The notes under the pieces: generated by a model
Database searches by the model: none
What the model saw: only the letters and a program-made list of their open reading frames with translations
Told to the model about the DNA's origin: nothing
Program-made: the position numbers and the translations under genes
Assembly (NCBI RefSeq): GCF_030678875.1
Contig: NZ_JAUUDS010000001.1
Coordinates: 868,001-932,000 of the forward strand
Reading direction: 5' to 3'
DNA: 64,000 nucleotides
Source of the DNA: Sphingomonas aurea
Lineage (GTDB): Bacteria; Pseudomonadota; Alphaproteobacteria; Sphingomonadales; Sphingomonadaceae
Part shown: positions 1-6,542 of the stretch, piece after piece
How the letters are laid out: each line of letters opens with the position of its first letter
Numbering within the stretch: position 1 is the stretch's first letter

Positions 1-115
1 GGCCGACGACGGCGAGGATCGTCTCGATCCCGAACGGGGCGAGCGCGACGGCGAGTTCGGTGGCGTACTGCCATACGCCCCCTACCGCGTCGGCGGCCAT
101 CAGCAGGCGCGTCAT
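1..115 (-). CDS. Glycosyltransferase family 4, N-terminal fragment (cut by window edge)
   Basis: Only the first 38 or so codons are in the window. The product begins MTRLLMAADAVGGVWQYA, the N-terminal Rossmann strand and glycine-rich loop typical of GT4 (GT-B fold) retaining glycosyltransferases, which transfer a sugar from a nucleotide-sugar donor. Its ATG at 115..113 overlaps the TGA of the upstream epimerase (ATGA), so it is translationally coupled as third gene of a minus-strand operon with two sugar epimerases. The acceptor and donor sites lie outside the window. Family assignment rests on the N-terminus and context only. Confidence 0.75.
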   Translation of the reverse strand, partial: MTRLLMAADAVGGVWQYATELAVALAPFGIETILAVVG

Positions 116-1176
116 GATGCGGCCCGGAGCAGCAGCGCTTCCTCCACGACCGGCAGGTTCAGGCGCCGCTCGGCCGCCAGCCAGCGGGCGAGGGTTGCGA
201 CACCGTCCTGCCAGGCGCGCTTCGGAGCGAGGCCGAGCGCCTGCTCGGCGGCGCGGGTGTCGGCGACGAAGTAGCGCTGGTCGCCGGCGCGCCAGTCGGC
301 ATAGCTCACCTCGACCTCGCGGCCGATCAGCGTGCCGATATGGGCGATCAGCTGGCGCAGGCTGATCGCGTTGGCGGGGCCGCCGCCCAGGTTGAACGCG
401 CGGCCCTTCACCGCGTCGATATGCCGCCACGCCTGCACATAGGCGTCGACCGCGTTCGACACGTCGAGAATGTCGCGGACCTGGTGACCGTCGCCGTAGA
501 GGGTGATCGGCTCGCCCTGCAGGGCGCGGATCAGGAAATGGGCGACCCAGCCCTGATCCTCGGTCCCCATCTGGCGCTGTCCGTAGATGCAGCTCATCCG
601 GATCACCGCGGCGGGCAAGCCGAAGCTGCGCGCGTAATCGAGAACGTATTGGTCAGCCGCCCCCTTCGACACGCCGTAGGGCGTGTGGAAATCGAGCGGG
701 CGATCCTCGCCGATGCCGTGCGCGCGGACCTGCGCGTCGACGGGGACATAGGCGTCGCCATCGAGCCGGAAATCGAGGTCGGCGAGGTCGCCATACACCT
801 TGTTGGTCGAGGCGAAGACCAGCGGGACCGCCCTGCCCTGCTGCCGCAAGGCTTCGAGCAGGTTGAACGTGCCGCCGATGTTGATCTCGTGATCCTCGCG
901 AGGATCGACCATCGAGGTGGTGACCGCGACCTGCGCGGCGAGGTGGAAGACCGCATCGGCATCCGTCACGGCCTGAGCCAGGCGGTCGGCGTCGCGGATG
1001 TCGGCATGAACGAAGTCGATCGCATCACCGTGGCGGTCGCGGAGCCAGTCCAGGTTGCGCTCCGTCCCGGCGCGGCTGAGCGCGTCGTAGACGCGGACGC
1101 GGTGGCCGTCGCCGGCGAGCCGGTCGGCCAGATTGGCGCCGATGAAGCCCGCCCCGCCGGTGACGAGGATGGTCAC
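112..1176 (-). CDS. NAD-dependent epimerase/dehydratase (nucleotide-sugar SDR), first of pair
   Basis: The 354-aa product is an extended short-chain dehydrogenase acting on a nucleotide sugar in the cytoplasm. It opens with the NAD-binding motif TGGAGFIG within the first 15 residues. It has a catalytic YGVSK (YxxxK) near the middle and the RDILDV segment usual in UDP-glucose epimerase relatives. I chose a GTG start at 1176 because the GTG overlaps the TGA of the preceding epimerase. A longer reading from 1251 adds Arg-rich sequence that does not look like an SDR N-terminus. The 3' end overlaps the glycosyltransferase by 4 bp. The exact sugar substrate cannot be told from sequence. Confidence 0.88.
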   Translation of the reverse strand: MTILVTGGAGFIGANLADRLAGDGHRVRVYDALSRAGTERNLDWLRDRHGDAIDFVHADIRDADRLAQAVTDADAVFHLAAQVAVTTSMVDPREDHEINIGGTFNLLEALRQQGRAVPLVFASTNKVYGDLADLDFRLDGDAYVPVDAQVRAHGIGEDRPLDFHTPYGVSKGAADQYVLDYARSFGLPAAVIRMSCIYGQRQMGTEDQGWVAHFLIRALQGEPITLYGDGHQVRDILDVSNAVDAYVQAWRHIDAVKGRAFNLGGGPANAISLRQLIAHIGTLIGREVEVSYADWRAGDQRYFVADTRAAEQALGLAPKRAWQDGVATLARWLAAERRLNLPVVEEALLLRAAS

Positions 1177-2288
1177 GCGACCAGTCCCCGCTTCTCCAGC
1201 TCCGCCCGCGCGGCGGCGACATTGTCGGTCGCGGTCTGCTCGGCGACCCACTCTGCGAGGTCGGCGAGACCCTGCTGGAAGTCCTGCGTGGCGCGGAAGT
1301 CAAGCTTCTCGGCGGCGAGCGAGGTGTCGCAGAAACAGTGGCGGATGTCGCCGATCCGCGCCTTGCCGACGATCTCCGGCGCGATGTCGTTCTTGCCCAT
1401 CGCACGGGCGAGTTCGGTCGCGACCTCGGTCACCGAGCGGTCGTGGCCCGAGCCGATGTTGAAGGTGCCGCCGGTCGCCTGCGGCAGGACCAAAGCGTCG
1501 GCGAAGGCGCGGGCGACGTCCGACACATGGACGAAGTCACGGCGCTGCTCGCCATCCTCGAAGATCATCGGCTGCTGGCCATTAAGCAGGCGCGAGGCGA
1601 AGATGGCGAGGACGCCGGTGTACGGGTTCGACAGCGCCTGGCCGGGGCCATAGACGTTGAACAGGCGCAGGCAGACCCCCTCCATGCCATAGGGCGCGGC
1701 CATGATGTGGGTGGTGCGCTCCTGCACATATTTGTTGAGCGCGTAGATCGACGACAGCGCCGGTCGCTTCCACTCGGGCGTCGCGACCGGGGCGAGCGGG
1801 CGGCCCTGCGCGTCGACCGGCTCCCAGTTGGACAGGCCGTCCTTCAGCCCGTGGCGCTCGGCATCCTCGACCAGCGCACCGTCGGCATCGCGGTACAGCC
1901 CCTCGCCATAGATCGACATGGACGAGGCCGTCACGACGCGGCGAACGGGATGGTCGATCAGCTTCTCGAACAGCACCGCGGTGCCGACGTCGTTAGTCGA
2001 GGTATAGCGCTCGACCTCGTACATCGACTGGCCCACGCCGACCTCTGCCGCGAGGTGGATGACGCTGTCGACGCCCTGGAGCGCGCGGGCGACGACGTCG
2101 CCGTTGCGGACATCGCCACGGATCAGCTCGGCCTCTGCATTGAGGAGCGGCGGGCGTTCGACGTCGCCGTGCACCTGCTCGATCAGGCTGTCGAGTACGC
2201 GGACGCGGTGGCCGCGGCGGAGCAGTTCGTCGCCGACGAAGCGGCCGATGAAACCGGCGCCGCCGGTGATGAGCACGGTTTCGGTCAA
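1173..2288 (-). CDS. NAD-dependent epimerase/dehydratase (nucleotide-sugar SDR), second of pair
   Basis: A 371-aa extended SDR with ITGGAGFIG at residues 6-14, a HLAAEVGVG strand, an ASSMSIYGEG serine-bearing active-site segment and YALNK as the YxxxK pair. Compared with the downstream paralogue it has an insertion of about 30 residues before the Tyr (around residues 135-165). This insertion is often seen in epimerases that sit beside glycosyltransferases in surface-polysaccharide loci. It is the first gene of the minus-strand operon and overlaps the next epimerase by 4 bp (GTGA). Two different SDRs in series suggest two modifications of one nucleotide sugar; that is inference. Confidence 0.88.
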   Translation of the reverse strand: MTETVLITGGAGFIGRFVGDELLRRGHRVRVLDSLIEQVHGDVERPPLLNAEAELIRGDVRNGDVVARALQGVDSVIHLAAEVGVGQSMYEVERYTSTNDVGTAVLFEKLIDHPVRRVVTASSMSIYGEGLYRDADGALVEDAERHGLKDGLSNWEPVDAQGRPLAPVATPEWKRPALSSIYALNKYVQERTTHIMAAPYGMEGVCLRLFNVYGPGQALSNPYTGVLAIFASRLLNGQQPMIFEDGEQRRDFVHVSDVARAFADALVLPQATGGTFNIGSGHDRSVTEVATELARAMGKNDIAPEIVGKARIGDIRHCFCDTSLAAEKLDFRATQDFQQGLADLAEWVAEQTATDNVAAARAELEKRGLVA

Positions 2289-2504: not shown

Positions 2505-3113
2505 ATGACGGCGAGCGTCCTGCTGATTCGGCATGCCGCGCATGTGCATCTCGACCGCTGCCTGTCGGGCCGGATGCCCGGCGTGCCGCTGAGCGAGGTC
2601 GGGCATGCGCAGGCGGCTGCGCTGGGTGCGGCGCTCGCCGACGAGGGGCTGACGGCGGTGGAGTGCAGTCCGCTCGACCGTACCCGCGAGACGGCGGCGG
2701 CGATCGCTAGCGCGGCTGGGCTGGGGGAGCCGCGGGCAGCCGAGGCGCTGGTCGAGATCGATCTGGGCGACTGGACGGGACGTGCGTTCGGCAGCTTCGG
2801 CGACGATCCGGCGTGGCGCGACTGGAACGCGCACCGTGGCACCGCGCGTATCCCCGGCGGCGAGACGATGGCGGAGGCGCAGGGCCGGATCGTCGGTTAT
2901 CTGGAGCAGATCGGGCGCGAACGATCGGGCGAGACGATCGCGCTGGTCACCCATTCGGACATGATCCGGGCGGCGGTGGCGCATGTGCTGGGGCTGTCGC
3001 TCGACCACCTGCTGCGCTTCGATGTGGGGCCGGCCTCGGTCAGTCGGGTGGTGATCGGCGACTGGGGCGCGCGGCTGGTCAGCCTGAACGAGCGATTGGG
3101 GGATGTGCGATGA
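2505..3113 (+). CDS. Histidine phosphatase family protein (phosphoglycerate-mutase-like)
   Basis: A 202-aa branch-2-free histidine phosphatase. LLIRHA at residues 6-11 gives the catalytic Arg-His; the usual RHG is RHA here. SPLDRTRETA at about residue 56 supplies the second Arg, EIDLGDW at about residue 84 the general acid, and VTHSDM at about residue 149 the second catalytic His. Such enzymes remove phosphate from small metabolites, often sugar phosphates. The stop overlaps the start of the following glycosidase (ATGA), so the two are co-translated. The context points to a sugar-phosphate or nucleotide-sugar intermediate as substrate, but that is inferred. The ribosome-binding site before the ATG is weak. 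Confidence 0.85.
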   Translation: MTASVLLIRHAAHVHLDRCLSGRMPGVPLSEVGHAQAAALGAALADEGLTAVECSPLDRTRETAAAIASAAGLGEPRAAEALVEIDLGDWTGRAFGSFGDDPAWRDWNAHRGTARIPGGETMAEAQGRIVGYLEQIGRERSGETIALVTHSDMIRAAVAHVLGLSLDHLLRFDVGPASVSRVVIGDWGARLVSLNERLGDVR

Positions 3114-4021
3114 TCGAAGCGGCGATGATCTGGAATGAGCCGAACAACAAGTCGCACTGGGACGTGGCGCTCGACCCCGACTGGGCGATCTTCGGCGAGA
3201 CGGTGAAGCAGGCAGGCGCGGCGATCCGCGCGGCCAATCCGGCGGTCACGCGCGTGCTGGGCGGCATGTCGCCGATCGACCCGCAGTTCGTCCACCGGCT
3301 GGCGGGATATGGGGTGATGGACGCGGTCGACGTGGTCGCCGTCCACGGATTTCCGCTCGACTGGAACCTGTGGTCGATCCACCAGTGGCCCGACAAGATC
3401 GCCGAGATCGAGGCGGCGGTGGCCAAGCCAATCTGGGTGACCGAGGTCGGCGTCGGCACCTTCGGCGCAGACGAGGTGCAGGTGTTCGGGATCGAGCGGA
3501 CCGCCGAGCTGCTGGTCGGGCGGGTGCCGCGCATCTTCTGGTACTCGCTGTTCGACCTGCCGATGGAATGGGGTGCCGAGACGCGGCACCGCGAGGCGGA
3601 AGGATCGAGCTATTACCGGCATTTCCACATGGGCCTGATCCGGCCGGACGGCACGCCGAAGCCGGCACTGGACAGCTATGCCAGGGTCGCCGGCGACGTG
3701 GGGCTGATGCAGTGGTTCCACTATCAGGACCCGCGGCTGGACGAGGCGGTGGCGTGGATGAAGCGGCTGGGCACCCGGCACCTGCGCACCGGGATGAGCT
3801 GGGCCGACAGCTTCCGCCCCGATGCGCGCGGCTGGTTCGACCGGCAGATGGAGGCGCTGGCGGACTTCGACGTCACGCTGACCTTCTGCTTCACGCCCGA
3901 GCATCTGGGGCTGGCACCGCACCACACCAGCCCGCCACGCGATCCCGCGCAGTTCGCCGACTTCTGCGCCGAGATGATCGAGCGCTACGCCCCCGCACAG
4001 GCCGCGCGGGCGGTCGCCTGA
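3110..4021 (+). CDS. Clan GH-A-like glycoside hydrolase with apparently permuted barrel
   Basis: A 303-aa protein that starts almost directly at a clan GH-A acid/base motif, IWNEPNN, with Glu10. It then has strand-like segments VLGGMSPID (49-57) and VDVVAVHGFP (73-82), a nucleophile strand IWVTEVGVG with Glu112, and RIFWYSLFD (141-149), i.e. barrel strands 4 to 8 in order. Residues 200-303 then read like the beginning of such a barrel: TRHLRTGMSWAD (222-233), VTLTFCFTPEHLG (255-267), then a PPRDPAQFADFCAEM helix that normally comes just before WNEP. The order is thus strands 4-8 followed by 1-3, a circular permutation. The start is fixed by the ATGA overlap with the phosphatase gene. No signal peptide is seen, so it acts in the cytoplasm. 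The substrate is unknown. Confidence 0.8.
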   Translation: MIEAAMIWNEPNNKSHWDVALDPDWAIFGETVKQAGAAIRAANPAVTRVLGGMSPIDPQFVHRLAGYGVMDAVDVVAVHGFPLDWNLWSIHQWPDKIAEIEAAVAKPIWVTEVGVGTFGADEVQVFGIERTAELLVGRVPRIFWYSLFDLPMEWGAETRHREAEGSSYYRHFHMGLIRPDGTPKPALDSYARVAGDVGLMQWFHYQDPRLDEAVAWMKRLGTRHLRTGMSWADSFRPDARGWFDRQMEALADFDVTLTFCFTPEHLGLAPHHTSPPRDPAQFADFCAEMIERYAPAQAARAVA

Positions 4022-4029
4022 GCATGGCC

Positions 4030-4536
4030 TCAGCCGGTCGGGGGCGGCTCTTTGTCGCGGAGCGTGTCGAGTACCTGTTCGGGGCGGACGTTGCGGGCGA
4101 TCTCATCGAGATTGGCGCCGTCGGTCGGCACCTCCAGCCGGTCGGCGATGCGGCCGAGCAGCGCTGCGACGCGGGACAGTTCGTGCTCGGCGAGAAGGTT
4201 GATGTGGAGGTCGAGATCGGCGCGCTCGTCGGCAAGGCGGGCGGTGCGGTTCTGCGAGATCAGCACGAAGGTCGACAGGAAGATCGCCTCGACCGAGGCG
4301 ACCATCGCCAGCACGACGAAGCTGGGGTCGAACTTCGGCTCCAGCCACAGGTTCCAGAAAATCCAGCCGCCGAACAGCGCCGCGTGGATGGCGACAAAGG
4401 TCATCGATCCGGTGAAGCCGGTGATCGCCGCCGCCAGCCGGTCGCCCAGACCCGCATCGGCGCGGTCGCGGGCGCGCTTGTCGCCGAGCGTATCGATGTT
4501 CCGGCGCAGCTGCGATTTCAGATCAGGGGATGACAT
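4030..4536 (-). CDS. DUF1003 family inner-membrane protein
   Basis: A 168-aa protein matching DUF1003. Two hydrophobic segments flank FDPSFVVL: one begins at TFVAIHAALFGGWIFWN and the other at VASVEAIFLSTFVLISQN. They are followed by a charged LDLHINLLAEHE helix typical of the family. The start at MSSPDL was taken because longer readings run into the promoter of the divergent dehydrogenase. It is transcribed opposite to its neighbours, convergent with the glycosidase (8-bp gap) and divergent from the alcohol dehydrogenase (45 bp). The family's biochemical role is unknown, and its place inside a carbohydrate locus may be incidental. Confidence 0.85.
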   Translation of the reverse strand: MSSPDLKSQLRRNIDTLGDKRARDRADAGLGDRLAAAITGFTGSMTFVAIHAALFGGWIFWNLWLEPKFDPSFVVLAMVASVEAIFLSTFVLISQNRTARLADERADLDLHINLLAEHELSRVAALLGRIADRLEVPTDGANLDEIARNVRPEQVLDTLRDKEPPPTG

Positions 4537-4581: not shown

Positions 4582-5553
4582 ATGGTGAGCGCGATGATGC
4601 AGGCAGCGATCCTGGAAGGCCCGGCACGGATGACGATCACCGCGGTGGACCGGCCCGAGCCGGGGCCAGGCGAGGTGCGAATCCGGCTGGAGGGATGCGG
4701 GGTGTGCGCGTCGAACGTCGAGCCGTTCGAGGGGCAGCCCTGGTCCAGCTTCCCCGGCGAGGCGGGCGGCATGGGGCATGAAGGCTGGGGCACGATCGAC
4801 GCGGTCGGGCCCGATGTGTCGGGCCTTTCGGTGGGTGACCGGGTGGCGGCGCTGTCGTACCGCAGCTTCGCCGAATTCGATGTGGCGAGCGCCGACGCGG
4901 TGGCACTGCTGCCGCCCGCGCTCGACGGGCAGGCGTTCCCGGGCGAGCCGCTGGGTTGCGCGATGAACATCTTCCGCCGGAGCGATATTCAGGCCGGACA
5001 GACGGTGGCGATCGTCGGGATCGGCTTTCTGGGCGCGGTGCTGACGCGCCTGGCGACCGAGGCAGGGGCGCGGGTGATCGCGATCTCGCGGCGGCAGGAG
5101 TCGCTCGATCTGGCGCGGGCGTTCGGAGCGGCGGAAACGGTGCCGATGCACGATCATTACGCGATCATCGAGGCAGTCAAGGCGCTGACCGGCGGCAAGG
5201 GTTGCGAGCGGGTGATCGAGGCGGTCGGCAAGCAATGGCCGCTCGACCTGGCAGGCGAGCTGGTCGCCGAGGGCGGACGGCTGGTGATCGCGGGCTATCA
5301 TCAGGACGGGCCGCGGCAGGTCTCGATGCAGATGTGGAACTGGAAGGGAATCGACGTGGCGAACGCGCATGAGCGCGATCACGGCGTCTGCATGCGGGGG
5401 CTGCGCGAGGCGATCGACGCGGTGGCGAGCGGACGGATCGACCTGGCGCCGCTGCTGACCCATTCCTATCCGCTGGAGCGGGTGGCGGAGGCGATCACCG
5501 CGACGCGCGACAAGCCCGAAGGGTTCGTGAAGGCCGTGGTGGTGTTTTCGTGA
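4582..5553 (+). CDS. Zinc-type alcohol dehydrogenase (MDR superfamily)
   Basis: A 323-aa medium-chain dehydrogenase. GCGVCASN near residue 39 gives the catalytic zinc Cys42, GHEGWG gives His66-Glu67, and IVGIGFLGAV near residue 150 is the nucleotide-binding loop. The four-cysteine structural zinc lobe of classic alcohol dehydrogenases is absent. It overlaps the next oxidoreductase by 4 bp (GTGA), so the two probably act on successive or the same intermediates, for example oxidising a polyol or sugar hydroxyl. The start could also be one of the ATGs at 4594 or 4597. The cofactor (NAD or NADP) cannot be decided by eye. Confidence 0.85.
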   Translation: MVSAMMQAAILEGPARMTITAVDRPEPGPGEVRIRLEGCGVCASNVEPFEGQPWSSFPGEAGGMGHEGWGTIDAVGPDVSGLSVGDRVAALSYRSFAEFDVASADAVALLPPALDGQAFPGEPLGCAMNIFRRSDIQAGQTVAIVGIGFLGAVLTRLATEAGARVIAISRRQESLDLARAFGAAETVPMHDHYAIIEAVKALTGGKGCERVIEAVGKQWPLDLAGELVAEGGRLVIAGYHQDGPRQVSMQMWNWKGIDVANAHERDHGVCMRGLREAIDAVASGRIDLAPLLTHSYPLERVAEAITATRDKPEGFVKAVVVFS

Positions 5554-6542
5554 GCGCCACGACACGTCCGCGCGTCGGGTTCCTCGGCGTCGGCTGGATC
5601 GGACGGCATCGGATGGCGGCGATGCTGGCGACAGGGGCGATCGAGGCGGCGGCGATCAGCGATCCTTCCGCTGAAATGGTCACTGAGGCGGCGGCGCTGG
5701 TGCCCGGCGCGGCGATAGTGGACGATCTCGACGCCATGCTCGCACTGGGGCTCGACGGGGTGGTGATCGCGACGCCGAGCGCGCTCCACGCCGACCAGTC
5801 CATCCGTGCCTTATCGGGGGGGGCAGCGGTGTTCTGCCAGAAGCCGCTGGGGCGCGATGCGGACGAGGCGGCTCGCGTCGTCGAGGCGGCCGAACGCGCC
5901 GACCGGCTGCTGTCAGTCGACTTCTCGTACCGGCTGACTTCGGGGATGCAGGCCATCGCCGGCCTGCTGCGCGAGGGCGCGCTCGGCCGGGTCTTCGCGA
6001 TCGATCTGGTGTTCCACAATGCCTATGGGCCCGACAAGCCGTGGTTCTATGACCGGGCGCAGTCGGGCGGCGGGTGCGTGATGGACCTGGGGGTGCATCT
6101 GGTCGACCTGGCGCTGTGGGCGCTGGGAGCGGACGAGCCGGCAACGGTCGAGGCGCGGCTGTTCGCGGGCGGCACGCCGCTGACTGCCGACGCGGTCGAG
6201 GATTACGCGGTGGCGACGCTGACGCTGGCGGACGGGACGGCGATCCGGCTGGCCTGTTCATGGCGGCTGAACGCGGGCGTCGAGGCGGAGATCGGCGCCA
6301 CCTTCTACGGCACCAGCGGCGGCGCGCGGCTGCGCAACATCGGCGGCTCCTTCTACGACTTCGCGGCCGAGCGGTTCGCCGGCACGACGACCGAGGCGCT
6401 GGCGCCGGTCGACAGCGACTGGGGCGGCCGCGCGGCGGCGGACTGGGCGCGGCGGCTGGCGGCGGGCGCGCGGTTCGATCCCAAGGCGAAGCGGCTGGTC
6501 ACGGTGGCGCGGACTCTCGACCGGATCTATGCCTGGGGGTGA
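5550..6542 (+). CDS. Gfo/Idh/MocA family oxidoreductase
   Basis: A 330-aa two-domain oxidoreductase with the N-terminal Rossmann motif GFLGVGWIGRHR at about residues 10-21. The family EKP motif appears as QKP (FCQKPLG near residue 94). An AGGTPL-type C-terminal alpha/beta domain follows. These enzymes oxidise or reduce sugars, inositols and nucleotide sugars with NAD(P). It begins with GTG overlapping the stop of the upstream dehydrogenase. It is the last gene of the apparent plus-strand part of the carbohydrate locus; an 81-bp gap separates it from the acyl-CoA dehydrogenases. Substitution of the EKP glutamate by Gln is a mild oddity. Confidence 0.87.
   Translation: MSATTRPRVGFLGVGWIGRHRMAAMLATGAIEAAAISDPSAEMVTEAAALVPGAAIVDDLDAMLALGLDGVVIATPSALHADQSIRALSGGAAVFCQKPLGRDADEAARVVEAAERADRLLSVDFSYRLTSGMQAIAGLLREGALGRVFAIDLVFHNAYGPDKPWFYDRAQSGGGCVMDLGVHLVDLALWALGADEPATVEARLFAGGTPLTADAVEDYAVATLTLADGTAIRLACSWRLNAGVEAEIGATFYGTSGGARLRNIGGSFYDFAAERFAGTTTEALAPVDSDWGGRAAADWARRLAAGARFDPKAKRLVTVARTLDRIYAWG

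Follow-up and report, generated by a model that had tools for sequence, protein, structure and literature searches.

The locus and its glycosidase gene

The stretch of DNA analysed here (the window) is a 64,000-nucleotide segment of a Sphingomonas aurea contig (NZ_JAUUDS010000001.1, positions 868,001 to 932,000). A gene at 3110..4021 on the plus strand encodes a 303-amino-acid protein (P0001) which, judged by the open reading frame (ORF) list, a profile of its relatives, an AlphaFold2 model and the Pfam family PF11790, is a circularly permuted glycosidase, with the late part of a (beta/alpha)8 barrel first and strands 1-3 last. It lies directly downstream of a histidine-phosphatase-type gene (MSMEG_4193-like; 2505..3113, plus strand; best NCBIfam match 146.7 bits, below the curated cut-off of 203.85), and starts with an ATG inside the last 4 bp of the phosphatase ORF (overlap 3110-3113). 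A reading of the letters alone (the sequence-only reading) had already given this frame with its overlap, and the ORF list bears it out. We consider it very probable that the protein, taken as a whole, is a natural permutant of a clan GH-A-like enzyme, derived from an ancestor of ordinary strand order, folding into the same closed barrel and acting as a cytosolic retaining glycosidase on the glycan of its gene cluster.

The odd order could in principle be an artefact: an ordinary enzyme with a mis-called N-terminus, whose strands 1-3 lie upstream of the called start and whose C-terminal piece belongs to a second, partial barrel. In its favour, the frame in the window stays open over the 133 codons before the ATG, but that stretch is part of the phosphatase gene. 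A scan of named genomes found at least 466 loci with a relative (all counts of named loci given here refer to the best 80 of these). The start motif is present in 78 of the 80; 13 of these 78 have a stop in frame no more than 10 codons ahead of the start and 20 no more than 25 codons ahead, and in one locus (L084) the stop TAA touches the ATG, with zero codons between. A six-frame scan of the 80 loci found exactly one barrel ORF in each, always in two swapped pieces, and no further barrel piece. Because in-frame stops precede the start in relatives, a missed N-terminus, judged unlikely in the sequence-only reading, is ruled out, and the six-frame scan disposes of the partial second barrel; we give this explanation practically no chance.

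Swapped order in sequence comparisons

A profile (A3) was built from 29 ordinary-order proteins and trimmed. Two parts of it match the protein in swapped order: profile positions 111-288 match residues 6-188 (145.2 bits, E = 3.4e-46) and positions 4-104 match residues 196-294 (90.6 bits, E = 1.5e-29), both E-values being for a set of three sequences. After rotation of the protein in silico at residue 190 there is a single match, over profile positions 4-288, of 243.7 bits. Such a pair of swapped matches, merged into one by rotation and set in the same (predicted) fold, is what is expected of a circular permutant. As the opening falls between profile positions 104 and 111, the chain must have been cut between helix 3 and strand 4. 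Residues 2-188 (3113..3673, plus strand) hold the elements b4 to a8 (b, strand; a, helix), the late part of ordinary relatives that now comes first, as delimited by profile positions 111-288 and the predicted strands. Residues 189-195 (3674..3694, plus strand), the gap between the two profile matches, join the old C-terminus (a8) to the old N-terminus (b1) over about 7 residues. Residues 196-294 (3695..3991, plus strand) hold b1-a1-b2-a2-b3-a3, moved from the N- to the C-terminus (profile positions 4-104 and the predicted strands). The block resembling strands 1-3 had been placed at residues 200-303; it is there, and begins near residue 196.

Single relatives give the same picture. P0228, a stand-alone ordinary-order protein of 332 amino acids, aligns through its residues 128-315 with residues 7-187 (37% identity, 95.9 bits) and through its residues 5-120 with residues 180-294 (37% identity, 79.7 bits), and P0121, another ordinary-order barrel, also aligns in two pieces, 33% and 27% identical. 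A search through 299 genomes of this phylum, followed by BLASTP, showed that one 784-residue frame of genome G265 holds the counterpart of residues 196-294 first and that of residues 7-185 second, i.e. in ordinary order. Because these distant relatives match in two swapped pieces, the comparisons show a permutation and confirm, at the level of sequence, that the swapped order is real and not due to chance. None of the close homologues (120 listed proteins, query included, and 80 named loci) has strands 1-3 ahead of the NEP motif; it is the distant relatives that have them first.

Predicted fold

The AlphaFold2 model of the monomer is one closed barrel of the order b4-b5-b6-b7-b8-b1-b2-b3 (mean predicted local distance difference test score, pLDDT, 87.8; predicted template modelling score, pTM, 0.88). 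It has eight strands (residues 2-7, 47-53, 75-80, 108-113, 142-145, 198-200, 224-230 and 254-260) with a helix after each, the last at 279-293, as in the (beta/alpha)8 barrel of clan GH-A; the join region holds the end of a helix (186-193) and a short loop. The nucleophile strand and the strand-8-like segment, which the sequence-only reading had put at 107-116 and 141-149, correspond to the predicted strands 108-113 and 142-145, and residues 196-294 supply strands 1-3 of the same barrel. A separate C-terminal domain is rejected on the strength of the model together with a structural alignment to other TIM barrels that spans residues 1-298. The rotated GH-A barrel of the sequence-only reading is thus supported, and a single closed eight-stranded barrel is what the model predicts.

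It could also be that the barrel is completed in trans, by a domain-swapped dimer or a partner protein, with the C-terminal block outside the barrel of its own chain. A swapped dimer looks identical by sequence, and AlphaFold2 was run on the monomer only; against this, the monomer closes with the pTM given above, residues 1-298 align with TIM barrels, and the short join fits old ends that were neighbours. We hold completion in trans to be very unlikely.

Sequential structure searches handle the permuted model poorly: Foldseek finds 7 PDB chains at E <= 0.001, versus 298 for an ordinary-order relative. Among the 50 matches listed by Foldseek and the 50 listed by VIA-align there is no recognised GH-A enzyme (the Foldseek matches are TIM barrels of many kinds). 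As both methods are sequential, this says nothing about clan membership.

Catalytic residues and family assignment

The motif W8-N9-E10-P11 comes right after the first predicted strand (2-7). The NEP motif, previously given as residues 8-11, is present, with N-E-P proper at 9-11 (3134..3142, plus strand). E10, just after strand 4, is the likely acid/base, and E112 (3443..3445, plus strand), at the end of strand 7, the likely nucleophile; both assignments come from invariance and from an alignment with PslG of Pseudomonas aeruginosa (GH39, clan GH-A; PDB 4zn2, 5bx9 and 9g17). All 80 aligned rows share N9, E10, H79, E112, W144, Y145, R226, W231 and D233, and P11 was likewise noted as invariant. 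R226 is presumably the strand-2 arginine usual in clan GH-A.

A direct sequence search against solved structures gave nothing meaningful (best E = 0.19), so profiles were needed. A profile of the permuted proteins matches the PslG construct (whole-sequence E = 2.8e-6) with its positions 3-154 on construct residues 132-302 (23.0 bits) and its positions 200-296 on residues 25-131; the two pieces are adjacent in PslG and swapped in the permuted proteins. Counted along the alignment, E10 falls on construct residue 139 and E112 on residue 250. Passages of two papers name Glu165 as the acid/base and Glu276 as the nucleophile of PslG (PMC11912335; PMC9075953). The offset is a constant 26, so E10 and E112 are in register with the PslG pair. 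The protein thus has its likely acid/base Glu in an NEP motif after strand 4 and its likely nucleophile where strand 7 ends, as clan GH-A enzymes have, whereas its chain order is 4-5-6-7-8-1-2-3 and not 1 to 8; it is therefore a permuted derivative and not a regular member of the clan.

Could the lineage be permuted but inactive, i.e. a pseudoenzyme that binds glycan or serves as a scaffold of the cluster? We found no report of activity for any permuted protein, which would fit, but the nine invariant residues include E10 and E112, and the Glu pair aligns with the catalytic pair of PslG; loss of activity seems quite unlikely to us.

Among the family models, Pfam PF11790 (Glyco_hydro_cc) matches at 25.3 bits (gathering cut-off 21), over residues 3-145 only, and the GH39 profile PF01229 reaches 11.2 bits, short of its cut-off of 26; with any linear profile, part of the score is lost on a permuted sequence. 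A Pfam scan to E = 10 gave only these two and PF07745, and so no GH70 family profile; NCBIfam has no model for the protein up to E = 10. Of the ordinary-order relatives, P0228 matches no Pfam model at E-values to 0.01, and P0121 has only a chance match. The weak GH39 match, the name beta-xylosidase given to homologues by several sources, and the xyloside assay put forward in the sequence-only reading would point to a beta-xylosidase or another exo-acting GH39-type enzyme of sugar catabolism. The best structural relative of the ordinary-order form, however, is PslG and not a xylosidase, and we regard such a catabolic role as unlikely.

Conservation and distribution of the permuted form

A homologue search with the permuted protein scored 8000 candidates, all at E <= 0.001. 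In the closest 120 of these 8000 (query included; at least 77% identical) the order is swapped in 120 of 120, as it is in all 80 best named loci, so that the strand order, whose conservation the sequence-only reading had proposed to check, is conserved among them. By their titles these loci are mostly from Sphingomonas, with others from Paracoccus, Roseomonas, Azospirillum and other Alphaproteobacteria, and one is a Lysobacterales metagenome-assembled genome (L078). One permuted homologue (L099; G619:C1:3595083-3595979) carries one in-frame TGA and is possibly a decaying copy, or else shows a sequencing error.

The corresponding search with the ordinary barrel P0121 returned 230 proteins at E <= 0.001 among 2677 candidates, of which 120 were listed. 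P0121 and these 120 (including the 29 used for the profile) make up a set of 121 ordinary-type proteins: 110 give a continuous match that spans the junction, 11 match with one half only and none is swapped. Many of the 120 carry SDR-type Pfam domains and names like CDP-paratose 2-epimerase. The ordinary barrels fused to a CDP-paratose-2-epimerase-like SDR (P0122; G265, locus L010) and the P0228 group, in which the ordinary barrel stands alone, belong to the same family as the permuted protein. Four of the 120 listed P0228-type proteins carry an organism name, in each case one of Planctomycetota: three are from Tepidisphaeraceae and one is from Humisphaera. CDP-paratose 2-epimerase is also the name of many proteins in this list that consist of the barrel alone (about 320-370 amino acids) and are given with no SDR domain; it has probably spread from the fused barrel-SDR proteins.

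Genome searches (the draws of 299, 385 and 398 genomes overlap in part) separate the two forms. With a profile of the P0228 group (E <= 1e-8), 12 of 398 genomes of the phylum have the swapped form and two (G265 and G441) the ordinary one, a third (G114) shows a weaker continuous match, and none has both. A search of 385 genomes of the class (A1; E <= 1e-10) gave eight swapped, six ordinary and again none with both. Two of six genomes listed from the same genus have the permuted gene. The S. aurea genome itself has a second permuted copy (L014/L115; G000:C11:68722-69627), 74% identical to the first. A TIGR04290-type methyltransferase gene immediately precedes it, and polysaccharide-pyruvyltransferase-type and FrhB-like genes lie nearby (families assigned via the relatives in L016).

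Gene neighbourhood

The cluster around the window copy (18.5 kb, L114) has on the minus strand an SDR gene, four homologues of the glycosyltransferase-type genes of locus L017, SDR1 (112..1176; NAD-dependent epimerase/dehydratase-type, with start GTG at 1176; its domain is the one fused behind the ordinary barrel in related bacteria) and SDR2 (1173..2288; the second epimerase/dehydratase-type gene of the cluster, by NCBIfam and locus comparison). The phosphatase and the permuted glycosidase follow, then a DUF1003 gene (4030-4536, minus strand; 87.8 bits), a zinc-type alcohol dehydrogenase gene (4582..5553, plus strand; weakly scyllo-inosose-dehydrogenase-like, 104.3 bits, below the cut-off of 450) and a Gfo/Idh-type oxidoreductase gene (5550..6542, plus strand; weakly inositol-2-dehydrogenase-like, 98.2 bits, below the cut-off of 355). 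The last two have homologues near the ordinary-order gene of G265 (L116).

That cluster in G265 consists of a TIGR04290-type methyltransferase gene, an SDR gene, three glycosyltransferase-type genes, a barrel-SDR1 fusion, SDR2, and the alcohol dehydrogenase and Gfo/Idh genes; no phosphatase was detected in it. The searches of 299 and 385 genomes gave seven ordinary-order loci; each has the barrel and SDR1 fused in a single frame, and each also has SDR2. The fused forms thus sit in a similar cluster with SDR2 and glycosyltransferase-type genes, but in one chain with SDR1 and in ordinary order; the permuted enzyme thus occupies the place of the fused barrel. The fusion suggests that the glycosidase and SDR1 act in one process.

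Directly upstream of the permuted gene, 75 of the 80 best named loci have a TIGR04290-type methyltransferase gene and two a histidine-phosphatase gene, while neither was detected in three. Our literature search found no paper on TIGR04290. An inositol-3-phosphate-synthase-like gene (model score below cut-off) lies in the flank of the permuted gene in 46 of the 80 (e.g. L026, 8951-10105). Together with the inositol-dehydrogenase-like neighbours it hints at an inositol-containing product.

Proposed function and origin

By analogy with PslG in the psl cluster, the enzyme may trim or turn over a beta-linked glycan made by the glycosyltransferases and SDR epimerases next to it; the reaction would be a retaining double displacement with Glu112 as nucleophile and Glu10 as acid/base. 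Glycosidase genes within polysaccharide-synthesis clusters are known, as passages of one paper relate (PMC9075953). Unlike PslG, whose strands run in the ordinary order and which, according to the same passages, resides chiefly at the inner membrane and in part in the periplasm, the permuted protein would be cytosolic, because its chain begins with strand 4, with no space ahead of it for a signal peptide.

A tree built from 68 ordinary sequences and 45 permuted ones after rotation has the permuted ones as one side of a branch (100/100), and in a tree with distant PslG-like outgroups 13 permuted sequences form one group (95/96). The ordinary strand order is general in clan GH-A, and the permuted order is therefore taken to be derived, arising once. 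From an ordinary-order ancestor the route was probably a tandem duplication with fusion, after which the outer parts were lost. An intermediate with a duplicated barrel was not seen; in the single long protein examined (P0316, 529 amino acids) the extra N-terminal part looks by eye like a different upstream protein and not a second barrel.

Several observations weigh against this account. The best outgroup tree has the permuted clade outside all ordinary ones (99/97) and not nested within them; groupings of the permuted proteins with the P0228 group (approximately unbiased test, p-AU 0.434) or with the fused group (p-AU 0.443) are not rejected, and the outgroups sit on long branches. Distribution is patchy, with the permuted form in 9 of the 299 genomes searched with P0001, and the window copy has the phosphatase directly upstream in place of the prevailing methyltransferase. 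Except for TIGR04290, the neighbouring genes score below the curated NCBIfam cut-offs, so that they name no pathway. The match of the moved piece to PslG (5.7 bits, independent E-value 64) is not significant alone. As to the model, the alignment given to AlphaFold2 was narrow (70-85% identity to the query), residues 157-166 have pLDDT below 50, and a domain-swapped dimer is possible.

Relation to known permuted glycosidases

Among the hits listed by our searches of the open-licence literature there is no natural permutant of clan GH-A; the sequence-only reading, too, knew of no described GH-A enzyme of this order. The nearest precedent is GH70, the sole natural permutation inside a glycosidase barrel that the literature search brought up, and a family of clan GH-H. 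As far as the passages cited here describe them, GH70 glucansucrases likewise have a naturally permuted barrel, cut within one element of the cut seen here: GH70 starts with a3, whereas our protein keeps a3 at its C-terminus. Relative to GH13, the GH70 barrel runs N-a3-b4-...-a8-b1-a1-b2-a2-b3-C in an account that also describes multidomain enzymes with a signal peptide (passages of PMC11046441), and its catalytic triad is two Asp and one Glu (passages of PMC6274110). GH70 thus differs from the permuted protein in sequence family and in catalytic residues. Permuted domain orders have reportedly also been seen in MalS (GH13_19; PMC10223318) and in a ruminal GH3 subfamily; by their descriptions these are reorderings of whole domains, whereas here the strands inside one barrel are reordered.

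Both the process and the fold are therefore known, and what is new for natural barrel permutation is the clan. If the same break did arise in two unrelated glycosidase barrels, catalytic TIM barrels would open preferentially at the junction of helix 3 and strand 4. On balance we lean towards this wider reading: a first natural permuted GH-A glycosidase, in an active lineage of single origin spread patchily over Sphingomonas, Paracoccus and their relatives, with a break that arose independently in GH70 and so marks a preferred opening site of catalytic TIM barrels. The permutation explains why annotation fails: PF11790 covers residues 3-145 only, and sequential structure searching finds 7 PDB chains, against 298 for the ordinary-order relative. 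Further permuted enzymes may be escaping notice for the same reason. The permuted lineage and its unpermuted relatives in similar clusters form a natural matched pair for relating chain order to folding, stability and catalysis.
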